Source of the DNA: Candidatus Villigracilaceae bacterium
Lineage (GTDB): Bacteria > Chloroflexota > Anaerolineae > Anaerolineales > Villigracilaceae
Direction of reading: 5' to 3'
Assembly (NCBI GenBank): GCA_026645935.1
Contig: JAPKMP010000002.1
Location: 124,001-188,000 of the forward strand
DNA: 64,000 nt
The notes under the pieces are model-generated. The model searched no databases, was not told the origin of the DNA, and was given only the letters and a program-made list of their open reading frames with translations. Positions 50,526 through 55,795 of this stretch are shown here, in pieces. The position numbers were made by a program, and so were the translations under genes. Numbering within the stretch: position 1 is the first letter of the stretch; every line of letters begins with the position of its first letter.

Positions 50526-51314
50526 TCAAAACGTGAAAAGGATCAAAGCCGTCGCCACTCCAAACGTTCCGCAGGCGAAATTGACCCGGTCATTGTCGAG
50601 CCACTTCCAGCCGCGGATGTGAACGGTTTCTGTACCGCATGAATGGAGGGGATGTTTCTCAGTCTCCTTCATGTCGGTGGGGCAGTAATACATGGCTTGG
50701 ACGGTCCCGCCGAGGAGGGAGTCAAAAAGGGAACCAGCCAACCCGGCGGCAGTAATCAGTGGAAGGAGCGACCAGTTATCAGTCAGGAGAGAGGCGAGGA
50801 AGGCGATTAACGCAGATCCTGCTAAAGAGGCGAGAGTTCCGACCAAAGAGATTCCGCCCGAGGTGCCTTTTTCAACGATTTTTGATAAGTTCGTGATCAT
50901 GCGCGGAGGGGTTGAATTCAATACACCGAGTTCGGTCGCCCACGTGTCGGCGTTGACGGCAGCAAGCGCAGAAGAAAAGCCGATCCAGACCCAAATCTCG
51001 TTCGGAAAAAAGAAATTAAGGGCGGCGAAGAACGCGGCGGCACCGCCGTTGCCGAAAACCTGCCCCGCGTCGCGTTCATGACCTTTGGAGAATTTTTCAT
51101 CGAGCCCTGCCTTGCGTTTTTTGAAGGCGCGGCTCAACCCGGACGAAGTGATGAAGAAGGTGAGCAGGAGGACAGCCCATTTCCAACCGCCGATTCCAAA
51201 AATGATCGTGCCGGTGATCGCCGCCGCGATCGCCCCGCTTGGATTGAGGCTGCGGGCTTTGTATGCGAGAAAAGCGATGACGATGGCGAGAATGAAGCCG
51301 AGGATGAGTTGCAT
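50526..51314 (-). CDS. DUF92 family membrane protein (phytyl-phosphate kinase-like)
   Basis: The 262-residue protein has about six transmembrane helices. Diagnostic DUF92/TIGR00297 motifs are AVNADTWATELGVL, ISLVGTLASLAGSALIAF, and GLAGSLFDSLLGGTVQA. Plant VTE6 and cyanobacterial homologues phosphorylate phytyl phosphate; in a non-phototroph the substrate would be another isoprenoid phosphate. This could link to the geranylgeranyl reductase-like protein at 24.4 kb. It lies 8 bp upstream of the aldo-keto reductase gene. Confidence 0.88.
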   Translation of the reverse strand: MQLILGFILAIVIAFLAYKARSLNPSGAIAAAITGTIIFGIGGWKWAVLLLTFFITSSGLSRAFKKRKAGLDEKFSKGHERDAGQVFGNGGAAAFFAALNFFFPNEIWVWIGFSSALAAVNADTWATELGVLNSTPPRMITNLSKIVEKGTSGGISLVGTLASLAGSALIAFLASLLTDNWSLLPLITAAGLAGSLFDSLLGGTVQAMYYCPTDMKETEKHPLHSCGTETVHIRGWKWLDNDRVNFACGTFGVATALILFTF

Positions 51315-51317
51315 AAT

Positions 51318-51365
51318 GGTTGAAGGTTGCAGGTTGAAGGTTGATTTTTGACTTGAAACCTTCAA
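51318..51365 (-). repeat. GGTTGAA heptanucleotide repeat with hairpin
   Basis: Four 7-mers in register (GGTTGAA, GGTTGCA, GGTTGAA, GGTTGAT, 51318-51345) are followed by an inverted arm. TTGAAGGTT at 51334-51342 pairs with AACCTTCAA at 51357-51365. It lies between the DUF92 start and the next gene. Confidence 0.65.
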
Positions 51366-51375
51366 TCTGTCACTT

Positions 51376-52284
51376 TTACACAGGCGTCGTGACGACGAAC
51401 AGAACAGCGAGTAAAAACAACAGGCTGCTCAACGTACTCGAACCCCAAACGATGAAAGAAAGAGTGCGTTCGCGTTCCCAGCGATAGAAATACAGTCCGG
51501 CGATCCAGCCTGCCACGGCAAGCAGGAGGCTTGCCACCGGTAGGATCAACAGTTGGGAAGAGGGTACGATCTCGAGCGCGCCGCCCGAACCCTGCAGGTC
51601 GATCGCCACTTGCTGCGTGGAAGGAATGATGAGGCTTGCCCAAATGAAGAGACCGATGTTCAGAAAAAGCGCGGAGAGCCACAAATATCGCGCCAGCCCG
51701 TTTTCCCATGCCTGTGAGACGATGAAGGACGGATACACCGATTTTGCATCGCTGGATGCAAGACTTCCCAATTCTGTGGCTCGAGCAAAGGTTTGAGCCA
51801 GCCCGGCGGGATTATCCGGTGAGATGGCGAAGATGCGTTTTGCCGTTGCCACGAGCAGAAGTTTTTTCATGTCGGATGCGATAAATTCCACGACACCCAG
51901 GTCAGGGTGGCGCCGCAGACCGAGCAAGGCACCGGGAAGCGGAAGAGGGGGCAGGCTGAGAGGTTTGGTGAGGTCCTCGACAGGACGAATCCACTCGATA
52001 TCGTTGAGCGGAATATCTTCGACTCGTAATCCCCAGTGGATGGCGAGGCTGTCGCGGTCGATCGTATACCCGGCGCGATAGAGCGCGAAGATTCGATAGG
52101 CGAAAAAGGGAATGGGGGCAAAAGCCGCCAAAGAGACCAAGAGCCAGGTGAGAAAGCTGAGTCCCACATCGGCGGAGGAAAGTTGCAGGAATCCAACGAC
52201 GACCATGCTCGTCAGGACAAACAGGATGATGCCGTGAATGAGCAATCCGCGTTGTTTGGGCGGGGGAAAGAAACCGGTGTTCAT
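51376..52284 (-). CDS. PH-like domain membrane protein
   Basis: The 302-residue protein has two N-terminal transmembrane helices (about 13-65), then a bacterial PH-like domain (about 70-165: YTIDRDSLAIHWGLRVEDIPLNDIEWIRP). Two further helices lie near the C-terminus. The PH assignment comes from the strand pattern with IPLNDI and is moderately certain. Function is unknown. A TCTAAT 6 nt before the ATG and no Shine-Dalgarno suggest a leaderless transcript. Confidence 0.75.
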   Translation of the reverse strand: MNTGFFPPPKQRGLLIHGIILFVLTSMVVVGFLQLSSADVGLSFLTWLLVSLAAFAPIPFFAYRIFALYRAGYTIDRDSLAIHWGLRVEDIPLNDIEWIRPVEDLTKPLSLPPLPLPGALLGLRRHPDLGVVEFIASDMKKLLLVATAKRIFAISPDNPAGLAQTFARATELGSLASSDAKSVYPSFIVSQAWENGLARYLWLSALFLNIGLFIWASLIIPSTQQVAIDLQGSGGALEIVPSSQLLILPVASLLLAVAGWIAGLYFYRWERERTLSFIVWGSSTLSSLLFLLAVLFVVTTPV

Positions 52285-52434: not shown

Positions 52435-53631
52435 TCAGGCAAGAAGCGCTGTTACGCGGTCGGTCAATTCGTTTAGTGGGACCGCCGTGTTCTCTTTTTC
52501 TTTGCGCGGCTTCAATTCTACCATTCCGTTCTGAAGCCCCTTTTCCCCTACCGTGACGCGAATGGGACAACCGATCAAATCCGCGTCGTTGAATTTGACC
52601 CCGGCGCGTTCATCGCGGTCGTCGAATAAAACTGAGATCCCTGCGTTTTGCAATGCATTATGGATTTCTTCAGCTTTGGACTTTGTATCCAGCGTCCTGC
52701 CGGGGACGTGCATCAGGTACACGTCAAAGGGCGAGGCGGAAAGAGGCAGGGTCAAGCCTTTTTCGTCGTGATGGGTCTCAGAGATGGCGAGCAGAATGTT
52801 TTCAAATTCGATCTTTCCATTCGATGCCAGCACGACAGCAGATCGAACCTCAAGCGGATTTCCGCAATTCGGGCATCCATCGCCCGCCTTTGCCTGCACC
52901 ACATCCGCGATGATCTCGGCTGAATAATCGCGCAGATAATTCGTATTGAGCAGGTGATATCCTTCCTCGTTCGCGCCTGCCACGAGGTTTTGCGATTCGG
53001 GAATGAGATCATCCACGATGATGAGCGCATCTTTCAACCCGACCGGCGATGCATACCCCGCCGCTGCGCCGGACCTTGAAATTGTCTCCGCATCTGCAAG
53101 CTGGATCTCGCCGAGGATTTCCCCCAGTTTTGCATCGCTCAACTGCATGTCTCCGCGTATGACGACAAAGACGAATTTTCCATCCGCTTTGCGGGTATAC
53201 ATCATTGCCTTGGCGGTCTTTTCCTTTGGGATGTTCAACAGGCTCGCCAGTGCTTCGATGGTATCGCAATCCGGCGTGGATATTTTCTCTAGGGGGAGTT
53301 CCGCTTCGCGGGGCATGGGAATCTTTTTGAATTTTGCAATTCGAAGCGGATCGACATAACCACATGCCGGGCATTGGGCAACCTCGATGGTGCCGGTCAA
53401 AAGCGGAAAATAAACGCCTCTTTCGCTCTTCAATATTTTCAAGCCAGCCTTGCTCCAAAAAGCCGGGTCATTCGAGAGCATCTCAAGCCGATTGGTCATT
53501 TGTACGCCCAGGGGCAGGAGTTGATTCTCGCGGGTCAAATATCCCGCACGGACGAGCCAGCCCCACCCCGGAGTGCGGGCGTTGTTGGGGAATTCACGCT
53601 GGGTTTGGATTTTCAAATCAGTGTATTTCAT
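52435..53631 (-). CDS. Prolyl-tRNA synthetase paralogue lacking the catalytic core (editing plus anticodon-binding domains)
   Basis: The 398-residue protein aligns with bacterial ProRS only in parts. Residues ~27-50 (LVRAGYLTRENQLLPLGVQM) match the ProRS N-terminus. A CPACGYVDPLR zinc-like motif leads into a complete YbaK/INS-type editing domain (about 112-255, including LLNIPKEKTAKAMMY and VVIRGDMQLSDAKL). A second cysteine pair (CPNCG) follows. The anticodon-binding domain spans about 300-398 (VLFDDRDERAGVKFNDADLIGCPIRV). Class II motifs 1, 2 and 3 are missing, so it cannot activate proline. It may clear mischarged tRNA-Pro in trans. GGAAGGGG precedes the ATG. Confidence 0.85.
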   Translation of the reverse strand: MKYTDLKIQTQREFPNNARTPGWGWLVRAGYLTRENQLLPLGVQMTNRLEMLSNDPAFWSKAGLKILKSERGVYFPLLTGTIEVAQCPACGYVDPLRIAKFKKIPMPREAELPLEKISTPDCDTIEALASLLNIPKEKTAKAMMYTRKADGKFVFVVIRGDMQLSDAKLGEILGEIQLADAETISRSGAAAGYASPVGLKDALIIVDDLIPESQNLVAGANEEGYHLLNTNYLRDYSAEIIADVVQAKAGDGCPNCGNPLEVRSAVVLASNGKIEFENILLAISETHHDEKGLTLPLSASPFDVYLMHVPGRTLDTKSKAEEIHNALQNAGISVLFDDRDERAGVKFNDADLIGCPIRVTVGEKGLQNGMVELKPRKEKENTAVPLNELTDRVTALLA

Positions 53632-53728
53632 AATCGAGGTCCCCTTCCAGATATTTTTCTCGCGGAAATCACGGCTGCCACAAAACTTAATCGCTTATTC
53701 GTATTCTTGAGCGGTTCTGCGGATGCAG

Positions 53729-54247
53729 TCAGGCTTTCTTCTTCCGCGCCACCTTTTGGGTGGATTCGGGGATGGACGCCGGCTCAGGGATTCGAAGCGG
53801 GGTCTGCGCAATCACTTCAGCCTGGGCGGCTTCAGACGGCGTGGCTTCGGGCGTCGGTTCGAGATTGAGATCGACCGATTCCTCCATTCGAATCTGCCCG
53901 CGCAGGAAAGCGCCTTCCTCGGTGACAAAAGCGGTGGTGATCACATCGCCCCACACGCGTCCTGTGGCGCGAATTTCCAATTTCTGGGTGGTGATATTTC
54001 CGCGCACCGCGCCCGCCACAATGACCGAGTTGGCGCGCACGTTCTGGCAGGTCACGCGACCCGTCTCGCCGACGACAAGCATACCGCGCAAGGCGATCTC
54101 GCCTTCGAAGGCGCCTTCCACCCGTACGCCGCCGGAACCGTTGATCGAGCCGTGCCAGATCACGCCCGAGCCAAGGACGGAAGTGATCCGTTCCACAGCC
54201 TGGACGGGTTGAGCGGTCTCTGACGGGGCAGTGTTGCGTTTGAACAT
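53729..54247 (-). CDS. Bactofilin
   Basis: The 172-residue protein has the beta-helical bactofilin core (about 22-125: SVLGSGVIWHGSINGSGGVRVEGAFEGEI, then repeated strands ending GAFLRGQIRM). It polymerises into membrane-associated filaments that scaffold wall or shape factors. The C-terminal tail is Pro/Ala/Glu-rich and ends in RKKKA. TAAAAT lies 6 nt before the ATG with no ribosome binding site, so a leaderless mRNA is likely. Confidence 0.9.
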   Translation of the reverse strand: MFKRNTAPSETAQPVQAVERITSVLGSGVIWHGSINGSGGVRVEGAFEGEIALRGMLVVGETGRVTCQNVRANSVIVAGAVRGNITTQKLEIRATGRVWGDVITTAFVTEEGAFLRGQIRMEESVDLNLEPTPEATPSEAAQAEVIAQTPLRIPEPASIPESTQKVARKKKA

Positions 54248-54329: not shown

Positions 54330-55130
54330 TTACTCGCTCTTTTCATCCCGTTTCACCATCTGGACGCCCATAATGTTGAAGCCAGAATCCACGTACAGCA
54401 CTTCGCCGGTAATGCGTTTCGAAAGGTCGCTGGCAAGGAAAACCGCTGCATCGCCCACATCGTCGATGGTCACATTCTCCTGCATGGGGGACATTTCTGC
54501 AAAGTGTTTGTACATGTCGCGGAAGCCGCCTACGCCCGCCGCTGCCAGGGTGCGGATCGCTCCGGCAGAAATCGCATTGACGCGAATCTTCCTCGGTCCC
54601 AAATCGTAAGCCAGGTACCTTGTCGAAGATTCCAGCGCCGCCTTGGCAACGCCCATCACGTTGTAATGGGGGGCGACCTTCACAGCGCCCGAACCGTAGG
54701 TCAGGCACATGACCGAACCGCCGTCGTTCATGATGGGCAGGAAGGCGTTCGTCAAAGCCACGAACGAAAAGACGGAAATATCCATCGCGTTCTTGAATCC
54801 TTCCCGGCTGGTTTGATGATACGGCTTGCTCAACTCGTCGCGCCCCGCAAAAGCTATCGAGTGGACCAGGATATCGATCTTGCCAAAGTGTTTCGCCGCG
54901 CTCTCGGCAGTCGCCGCAATGTGTTCGTCCTTCGTCACATCGCATTCTTCGACCCACTTGCATCCGATCTTTTCCGCAAGTGGTTTTACGCGCCGTTCGA
55001 GCGCCTCGCCTGCGTAACTGATGCCGATGTTCGCGCCTTCACGATGAAAGGCTTGTGTAATGCCCCAGGCGATGGATTTGTCGTTCGCCAGACCAAAGAC
55101 CAGGGCGTTCTTGCCGTCAAGTAAACCCAT
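54330..55130 (-). CDS. fabI: Enoyl-[acyl-carrier-protein] reductase (NADH), FabI
   Basis: The 266-residue SDR protein has NALVFGLANDKSIAWGI, the FabI-specific cofactor loop, and the SIAFAG motif. The catalytic Tyr-x6-Lys is Y-NVMGVA-K, with the upstream tyrosine in LTYGSGAVKV. It catalyses the last step of each fatty-acid elongation cycle. GGAGGAG precedes the ATG, and its own terminator follows, so it is probably monocistronic. Confidence 0.95.
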   Translation of the reverse strand: MGLLDGKNALVFGLANDKSIAWGITQAFHREGANIGISYAGEALERRVKPLAEKIGCKWVEECDVTKDEHIAATAESAAKHFGKIDILVHSIAFAGRDELSKPYHQTSREGFKNAMDISVFSFVALTNAFLPIMNDGGSVMCLTYGSGAVKVAPHYNVMGVAKAALESSTRYLAYDLGPRKIRVNAISAGAIRTLAAAGVGGFRDMYKHFAEMSPMQENVTIDDVGDAAVFLASDLSKRITGEVLYVDSGFNIMGVQMVKRDEKSE

Positions 55131-55216: not shown

Positions 55217-55795
55217 CTACGCCAAAATTATCTTCCAATCTTTCACCATAAACCGCCAGGGTTTGCTTAACCACGGCTCCGGTGTCTTATTTAACCCCAC
55301 ACGCGCGCCAATCGTCACGTTTTTGTCGGGAATGTTTTCCCCCGCCTCGATCCATAGACTTGAGCCTGGATCCGTTAAATCGGCAAAGTTCTCGCCTCTG
55401 CCGATCCCCATCGCCTGAGTCAATTTGCCCGGACCATTTGTGTCCCGCCCCTGTCGCCGTTTCATCATCACTTCGGTCCCCTCGACCGGCTGTATCGCGC
55501 GGATCAACACAGCCGCCGGAAACCCCTCCTTCTCCGTGACGACGTTCAGCATCCAATGATTCCCGTACGTGAAATAGACATAAGCATGCCCCGGCGGACC
55601 GTACATTGGCGCGGTCCGTTTTGTCAGCCCGGCTTTGGCATGGCAGGCAAGGTCTTCCTCACCGATGTACCCTTCGGTTTCGGTGATCAGTCCCACCAGC
55701 TTTTTCCCGCGCGAAATCCGCACCAGTCGCGCGCCAAGCAATTCGCGCGCGACGGTCAGTGTGGGACGATTGTAGAATTTGCGGGGGAGAATCAT
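55217..55795 (-). CDS. 3-methyladenine DNA glycosylase (AAG/Mpg family)
   Basis: The 192-residue protein carries ARELLGARLVR, ITETEGYIGEEDLACHA (catalytic Glu and water-binding region), MYGPPGHAYVYFTYGNHWMLNVV and NGPGKLTQAMGI. These are hallmarks of the AAG/MPG glycosylases that remove alkylated bases. The length matches the bacterial family. The next gene upstream on the strand is the epimerase; no clear promoter of its own is seen. Confidence 0.94.
   Translation of the reverse strand: MILPRKFYNRPTLTVARELLGARLVRISRGKKLVGLITETEGYIGEEDLACHAKAGLTKRTAPMYGPPGHAYVYFTYGNHWMLNVVTEKEGFPAAVLIRAIQPVEGTEVMMKRRQGRDTNGPGKLTQAMGIGRGENFADLTDPGSSLWIEAGENIPDKNVTIGARVGLNKTPEPWLSKPWRFMVKDWKIILA

Follow-up and report, generated by a model that had tools for sequence, protein, structure and literature searches.

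Can a gene that keeps the editing and anticodon-binding parts of a prolyl-tRNA synthetase (ProRS) and has lost its charging part still encode a working protein, and what would that protein do? The question is raised by a locus of a Candidatus Villigracilaceae bacterium (Chloroflexota, Anaerolineae, Anaerolineales; assembly GCA_026645935.1), within positions 124,001 to 188,000 of contig JAPKMP010000002.1. This stretch of 64,000 nucleotides is referred to as the window.

Architecture of the mini protein

The gene lies on the minus strand of the window, starts with ATG and forms an uninterrupted open reading frame of 398 codons. Its product (mini-ProRS-B, or ProRS-ed) is called the mini protein below, and the full-length enzyme that it resembles is called ProRS-B, a name used in PMC11580382. 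The following features were delimited.

52435..53631, minus strand: whole gene of mini-ProRS-B / ProRS-ed, 398 aa (ORF call; conserved clade)
53641..53648, minus strand: putative Shine-Dalgarno sequence, purine-rich GGAAGGGG, 9 nt ahead of the ATG (read by eye)
53476..53631, minus strand: residues 1-52, N-terminal segment and motif-1 remnant of ProRS-B (alignment, pN/pS)
53374..53475, minus strand: residues 53-86, collapsed core, with about 130 residues including motif 2 missing (alignment, pN/pS)
53362..53373, minus strand: residues 87-90, first CxxC pair (alignment)
52903..53301, minus strand: residues 111-243, INS / YbaK-type aminoacyl-tRNA editing domain (PF04073, structure matches)
53209..53211, minus strand: Lys141, in the INS domain (invariant in all 44 aligned proteins)
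52864..52875, minus strand: residues 253-256, second CxxC pair (alignment)
52774..52863, minus strand: residues 257-286, shortened motif-3 region, GxGxxR lost, helix kept in the model (alignment, AlphaFold2 model)
52438..52773, minus strand: residues 287-398, ProRS-type anticodon-binding domain, ABD (PF03129, structure matches)

The start Met is invariant across the 44 aligned proteins. In the mini protein Pfam finds tRNA_edit (PF04073; residues 119-234) with 70.7 bits against a cut-off of 25.5 and HGTP_anticodon (PF03129; residues 312-394) with 71.3 bits against 21, and no synthetase core domain is on its list; in a phmmer search, the INS and ABD parts match bacterial ProRS structures. An earlier note on this DNA had described a 398-residue protein with a ProRS N-terminal stretch, an INS domain and an ABD, a description borne out by the reading frame, Pfam and the alignment. 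The same note held that the stretch expected to carry class II motifs 1 and 2 had shrunk to about 40 residues and that motif 3 was missing. The loss is correct for motif 2 and for the motif-3 GxGxxR, neither of which is found in the aligned mini protein (0 of 8 canonical catalytic residues), but motif 1 is not wholly lost, since the motif-1 region of normal ProRS-B can be aligned with residues 1-52 of the mini protein. Between this remnant and the first cysteine pair the window protein has 45 residues, where relatives with 7 or 8 of the 8 canonical catalytic residues have 176-180. The two cysteine pairs to which the note drew attention are present but not distinctive: nearly all aligned full-length ProRS-B have them too. 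They were rejected as a new feature of the mini protein and are ancestral, inherited from normal ProRS-B.

The window protein falls under the cut-off of every whole-protein family model that it matches. It scores 231.1 bits with the bacterial proline--tRNA ligase model NF006625 (cut-off 558), 146.8 bits with TIGR00409 (cut-off 306.7), 19.9 bits with the YbaK/EbsC Cys-tRNA(Pro) deacylase model TIGR00011 (cut-off 153.25) and 26.9 bits with the ThrRS-ed model NF011500 (cut-off 362), the last alignment covering residues 289-393, that is, the ABD. Nor is it a single-INS-domain protein of the ProXp/YbaK type, since the ABD (PF03129) is present.

The INS superfamily is defined by an active-site Lys, a G-x-x-x-P loop and a His. 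K141, G192 and H226 are invariant in the 44 aligned proteins and P196 is conserved in at least 90% of them; across 58 mini rows the frequencies are 1.00 for K141, 1.00 for G192, 0.86 for P196 and 1.00 for H226. Lys141 is aligned with a Lys of the ProRS structures 5znj, 2j3l and 5ucm, and we take it to be the equivalent of E. coli ProRS K279. The K279A mutant of the E. coli enzyme is called editing-defective in PMC3973320.

The AlphaFold2 model of the window protein (44 sequences) has a pLDDT of 94.7, a pTM of 0.86 and no residue below 70, from an input alignment that included full-length ProRS-B and may bias the model toward that arrangement. VIA-align superposes 395 of the 398 residues on E. 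faecalis ProRS 2j3l_B (Z 29.7, rmsd 3.9), with rmsd values up to 5.9 for other ProRS-B entries, and the Foldseek alignment to 2j3l_B gives a TM of 0.79 by model length and an rmsd of 6.7. The INS part (residues 111-246) structurally matches 1wdv with a Z of 17.4. The spread of rmsd values from 3.9 to 6.7 means that domain positions are not tightly fixed; the model predicts that the INS-ABD geometry of full ProRS roughly survives on the shrunken core.

Charging enzyme, tRNAs and other INS proteins of the genome

The genome (98.7% complete, 70 contigs) encodes one full-length archaeal/eukaryotic-type ProRS (ProRS-A) on contig 3, which reaches 575 bits with TIGR00408 (cut-off 437); the check for a full-length ProRS elsewhere, proposed in the earlier note, thus has a positive outcome. 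By eye, motif 2 (RWE..) and the motif-3 Arg are present in this ProRS-A, and its locus is not among the seven places in the genome with an INS domain. Full-length ProRS-B was found neither with the window protein, whose only matches besides the mini gene were two anticodon-binding domains, including the one in ProRS-A, nor with the ProRS-B model, whose best match (E 3.3e-31) is the mini gene itself. Consequently, the only full-length ProRS found lacks cis-editing. On the evidence of these sequences, charging of tRNA-Pro is the task of the separate, INS-less ProRS-A, and the synthetic active site of the mini protein is gone.

Two tRNA-Pro genes, UGG and GGG, were found among the 39 of 42 tRNA places scanned. 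In our reading the UGG tRNA has C1:G72 and A73; G72/A73 is given as the bacterial tRNA-Pro identity set in PMC3973320.

Six further INS-domain proteins are encoded besides the mini protein, which may therefore not be the sole editor. L001 is ProXp-x-like (best PDB match 2cx5) and L003 YbaK-like, with 128.5 bits for TIGR00011, below the cut-off of 153.25. L002, L004, L005 and L007 have no NCBIfam family above cut-off and no close PDB relative; L002 lists ProXp-ala 5vxb at E 5.5e-4, weaker than its own YbaK match. A ProXp-ala was sought and none was clear among the five paralogues searched against PDB (L001, L002, L004, L005 and L007).

Distribution of the mini form

All 37 genomes of the genus that were searched (our own and 36 others) carry the mini protein, and in those 36 the best-matching piece shares 57-96% identity with the window protein. 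Thirty-three of the 37 copies are uninterrupted (the one in G004 with an in-frame insert), two are truncated by a contig end (G003, G014) and two are frameshifted (G017, G035). In the G004 protein (L091 / L066) the INS domain is longer by about 70 residues, inserted in frame between positions 153 and 173 of the window protein. A frameshift or stop, whether sequencing error or decay, breaks up three copies: L295 (G215), L085 and L063 (G017), and L065 (G035).

A contig scan over 84,980 species had 80 of 416 confirmed loci among the matches listed; among these 80, L071-L091 have the short architecture, some of them cut by contig ends, and the rest are longer or contig-end-cut. In 301 genomes across the phylum, our own included, at least 17 have a single-piece full-length match, all of those listed belonging to the family of the window, where the mini form also occurs in other genera with nearly constant architecture. 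The distance from motif 1 to the first CxxC pair is 34-53 residues in short forms other than fragments (178 aligned ProRS-B-like sequences). Homologues of the same length that retain motifs, for which the earlier note had asked, did not appear: none of the 58 short-architecture rows (window included) has motif 2 or 3. Short forms are monophyletic, with 100/100 support for 8 sequences in a careful tree and an SH-aLRT of 99 for 14 in a quick tree.

Genomic context

The genes flanking the mini gene in the window are as follows.

53729..54247, minus strand: bactofilin (PF04519), conserved synteny
54330..55130, minus strand: enoyl-ACP-reductase-like SDR, conserved synteny in mini-bearing genomes
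55217..55795, minus strand: methylpurine-DNA glycosylase (PF02245), conserved synteny
51376..52284, minus strand: protein with a bacterial PH domain (bPH_5), conserved synteny
50526..51365, minus strand: DUF92 membrane protein, conserved synteny

At the further mini loci, bactofilin is nearby in 20 of 20 and the PH-domain neighbour in 19 of 20 (22 loci entered, L067 and L068 being pieces of our own genome without the gene). No functional hint comes from these neighbours: bactofilin, SDR, glycosylase, PH-domain, DUF92 and aldo/keto reductase genes are all non-translation genes.

We compared 62 longer ProRS-B loci. The normal proS loci L108, L110 and L112 have the same bactofilin before them and the same PH-domain and DUF92 genes after them, L129 has bactofilin in common with the mini loci, and the degenerate L133 and L139 have bactofilin and the glycosylase. 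Since 56 of the 62, some with short flanks, show none of the four counted near neighbours, the shared chromosomal place rests on few loci. ProRS-B and the mini protein are of common descent, as INS, ABD, cysteine pairs and N-terminal segment align, and in a few genomes their chromosomal neighbours agree as well; ProRS-B has motifs 2 and 3 and about 160 core residues that the mini protein is missing. The mini gene thus occupies a site at which a normal or degenerate proS is found in a few relatives. Most simply, the mini protein is the native ProRS-B, shortened in place after ProRS-A took over charging.

Selection and retained positions

The dN/dS of the window gene is 0.17 overall and 0.09 in INS against L071, and 0.26 (0.018/0.068) against its nearest relative L015. 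Pairwise comparison of 17 mini genes (136 pairs) puts the median pN/pS at 0.25 in INS, 0.29 in the ABD and 0.28 in residues 1-50, and 0.54 (residues 51-86, the least constrained) and 0.50 in the two collapsed linkers, values that are rough because synonymous sites are near saturation. Mean dN for the same 17 sequences is 0.21 in INS and 0.26 in the ABD. By these sequence comparisons, the mini gene is under purifying selection; together with conservation across the genus, this agrees with the earlier view that its clean frame is not that of a decayed gene.

A decaying proS remnant or an assembly artefact is, accordingly, scarcely credible. Three of the examined mini copies are interrupted (G215, G017, G035), as decay would have it, but the protein, near-constant in architecture, is conserved across the genus and in further genera of its family, dN/dS is well below 1, the neighbours are constant, some of the genomes are single-contig and the predicted fold has high confidence. 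A mis-assembled proS in particular was rejected, given the presence of the mini protein in 37 of 37 genus genomes, two of which (G021, G026) consist of a single contig.

At columns conserved in at least 90% of 85 canonical ProRS-B, mean retention among the 58 mini proteins is 0.80 in INS and 0.90 in the ABD, and the mini consensus is identical at 42 of 49 INS and 28 of 29 ABD columns. Unchanged INS positions include K141, G192, S195, N221 and H226. INS ranks with the most strongly constrained regions of the protein, and its K141 and H226 are invariant, which a tRNA-Pro-binding translation regulator or sensor without deacylase activity would not need. Truncated synthetase paralogues that have lost charging and gained new roles are known generally, according to PMC4787780, but we found no positive evidence for the regulator suggested in the earlier note and hold it to be quite improbable.

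Mini-specific INS changes are F144 to M (at 1.00) and P191 to A (at 0.83; 58 mini rows), which may have shifted the substrate or specificity of the domain. Lying at conserved columns, they would suit a trans-editor of some other misacylated tRNA-Pro (Cys-, Ser-, Thr- or a non-protein amino acid) and not of Ala-tRNA-Pro. Members of the INS superfamily with the same fold differ in amino-acid specificity (PMC11295145), and duties could be divided with the YbaK-like and ProXp-x-like paralogues in the genome. Against this, the canonical consensus persists at those 42 of 49 strongly conserved INS columns, and, with no clear ProXp-ala among the five PDB-searched paralogues, the mini protein is free to fill the Ala role. 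We judge a substrate other than Ala-tRNA-Pro to be distinctly unlikely.

Degenerate ProRS-B in relatives

Twenty-six longer ProRS-B (INTERMEDIATES) have 0-2 of the 8 canonical catalytic residues and keep INS and ABD. Their mean retention is 0.83 in INS, 0.86 in the ABD and 0.18 in the catalytic core, the last scored on the 77 conserved columns missing from the window protein; L095 (5/8) and L200 (7/8) were left out of the retention classes. Degenerate forms are about 500-610 aa long and occur in families f4, f5, f7, f12 and f13 of the order, the Anaerolinea thermolimosa protein L133 being one of them. Four more come from f16, f17 and f22, in the same class as the window. Two further proteins are only partly changed: in L280 (f16) motif 2 is mostly kept, the second motif-3 Gly is replaced by Asn and the canonical THEE segment is altered, and L095 has its motif-2 Arg replaced by Gln and two more changes. 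Further beyond the order, in f35, which is one genus outside the class, seven genomes have forms of 530-540 aa from which both motifs are gone. At the f35 loci L269-L275 (G337, G352, G449, G420, G308, G278 and G482) the ProRS-B without motifs 2 and 3 is found beside ProRS-A.

A census of 201 genomes of the order, with ProRS-A counted at E ≤ 1e-40 and the genomes of L133 and L139 left out of that search, links the state of ProRS-B to the presence of ProRS-A. ProRS-A was present in 23 of 23 genomes with the mini form (22 clean copies; that of G215 interrupted), in 20 of 25 with a degenerate form (24 motif-checked across the core; L199 a fragment) and in 26 of 81 with an intact ProRS-B as defined by the NF006625 cut-off, only part of these being motif-checked; the counts are 48 of 65 for genomes with no ProRS-B and 2 of 7 for those with contig-edge pieces. 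Among the five degenerate-form genomes without ProRS-A, four are 62-82% complete, while G053 is 96% complete with a best ProRS-A match of only 34 bits and counts against the pattern. Outside the order, ProRS-A is above cut-off in 12 of 12 genomes with a degenerate or partly changed ProRS-B.

In the careful tree, drawn from 71 rows (36 intact, 27 degenerate and 8 mini) with a bootstrap that had yet to settle, intact and dead forms are separated by six changes, and its starred branches force at least three for the label 'intact'; the quick tree (93 rows) needs five, with at least two forced. Seven fragments were dropped before the quick tree, and near-duplicates by identity thinning. The careful tree is a hand-picked subset of the quick-tree rows with nine new out-of-order degenerate rows added, and omitted eight degenerate rows (including the long branches L198 and L057) and some mini and intact rows. 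With weak deep branches, these trees give no firm number of independent losses.

Six relatives with ProRS-A only were searched for INS domains. Their INS proteins are L001-like, L003-like or without assignment, and in two of the six (G115 and G131, 97-99% complete) there was no INS-domain match, from which it follows that relatives can live without such editing; it may be dispensable in them. G115 and G131 have no visible Ala-tRNA-Pro editor of the INS superfamily.

ProRS-A itself varies among these genomes, as seen in a motif comparison that took in L011 (our own), L301-L338, L200-L202, L093, L107, L142 and L218-L220. The motif-3 Gly is replaced by Ala (WGLSTR to WAISSR/WAISTR) in 13 of 22 mini-bearing genomes and 0 of 25 others, and the residue ahead of TTSW is W in 0 of 22 mini-bearing genomes and 24 of 25 others. 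Such changes may reflect drift within the lineage or co-evolution with the editor. They bear on the possibility, compatible with the best explanation, of a heteromeric ProRS in which the mini protein binds ProRS-A, for example via its motif-1 remnant, and edits in complex. In mini-bearing genomes ProRS-A is changed in or next to motif 3, rarely or never elsewhere; the N-terminal/motif-1 remnant is under constraint and follows a consensus of its own; and ThrRS T1/T2 heterodimers with trans editing are published (PMC4787780). The mini protein and ProRS-A nevertheless belong to ProRS types far apart from each other, and the changes in ProRS-A may be no more than a mark of the lineage, so that we regard such a subunit as possible, if unlikely.

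ProRS-A and a longer ProRS-B lie within about 2 kb on the same strand at L200, L201, L202, L093, L107, L142 and L150. The three genomes of the window's family with such a pair (G113, G204, G224) are without the mini form, as if a two-gene cassette had replaced it.

Proposed function

In E. coli ProRS, INS editing of Ala-tRNA-Pro needs ABD contacts with G35/G36 and tolerates acceptor-stem changes, whereas single-domain ProXp-ala reads the acceptor stem and YbaK is without tRNA specificity (Das et al., PMC3973320). INS and ABD are hence the parts needed for INS editing, which depends on the ABD and hardly on the acceptor stem; that the mini protein keeps both and has dropped the charging site therefore fits an anticodon-guided trans-editor. 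With the charging part lost and the tRNA-recognition and editing parts kept, it is probably a dedicated proofreader beside an INS-less synthetase. The reading that we favour, with a probability of about 0.7, is that the mini protein would be a tRNA-Pro-specific trans-editing factor, derived from the organism's own ProRS-B, that clears Ala-tRNA-Pro made by ProRS-A. The trans-editing role put forward in the earlier note is in this way the best-supported candidate.

In the proposed mechanism, ProRS-A would sometimes form Ala-tRNA-Pro, and the mini ABD would grip the tRNA-Pro anticodon at G35/G36. The reduced class II core would, together with the cysteine pairs, keep INS at the distance from the ABD that it has in full ProRS. 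The misacylated 3' end would then enter INS and be hydrolysed, freeing tRNA-Pro for recharging. The mini protein may meet the tRNA after its release from ProRS-A or in complex with ProRS-A. Ala as the substrate is our inference.

ThrRS-ed lacks the synthetic core and occurs together with a ThrRS that charges but has no editing. The mini protein resembles it in layout, though not in membership, having an editing domain and an ABD, no core and an editing-less synthetase beside it. For ThrRS-ed, a Ser-tRNA(Thr) hydrolase of some archaea, the same editing domain plus ABD arrangement is given in the Figure 2 legend of PMC11295145. Its editing fold and tRNA are different, those of the mini protein being INS and ProRS-type, and unlike ThrRS-ed the mini protein has relatives that still show intermediate stages of the loss. 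ProXp-ala, YbaK, ProXp-x and ProXp-ST1/2 have the INS fold and act in trans beside a synthetase, as we infer for the mini protein. ProXp/YbaK trans-editors are described as single-domain (PMC11295145), whereas the mini protein keeps a full ABD and a core remnant; and where ProXp-ala reads the acceptor stem (PMC3973320), the mini protein is predicted to read the anticodon. In Anabaena, one of two ThrRS, T1 and T2, edits in trans (PMC4787780), but T1 is a complete synthetase that loses charging reversibly at low zinc, while in the mini protein charging has gone for good, with the structure that carried it. ProRSx, found in Streptomyces and relatives, is likewise a second, altered ProRS in one genome (PMC10365949); it charges tRNA with proline, and the mini protein is without the charging motifs 2 and 3.

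Taken across the phylum, it seems fairly probable that in Chloroflexota with ProRS-A the native ProRS-B turned into a tRNA-Pro proofreader more than once, with the motifs decaying first and one family cutting the core to a strut of about 45 residues. Traces of the proposed conversion would then be found in several families of this order, in further families of the class and in a single genus beyond the class. Among titles and the openings of abstracts, most subscription papers lying outside this scope, we found no published ProRS-derived INS+ABD protein without a synthetic core, which is not proof of absence.

The mini protein is real, conserved and unusual, and it is probably a trans-editing protein that arose when a synthetase lost its charging core. 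If this is true, it would represent a multi-domain, anticodon-reading class of INS trans-editors, the ProRS counterpart of ThrRS-ed with its evolutionary steps visible. It would also be a natural minimal construct for signalling from the anticodon to the editing site across some 70 angstroms. INS of E. coli ProRS does not itself recognise tRNA-Pro, and INS-ABD communication is called an open question in PMC3973320; the mini protein, consisting of both ends with little synthetase between them, would be a ready minimal system for it. For annotation, some Chloroflexota proteins of about 500-610 aa, such as L133 of Anaerolinea thermolimosa, resemble ProRS and are without charging motifs. For the organisms themselves, the finding suggests that replacement by an editing-free synthetase can be balanced by keeping the old enzyme as a proofreader.
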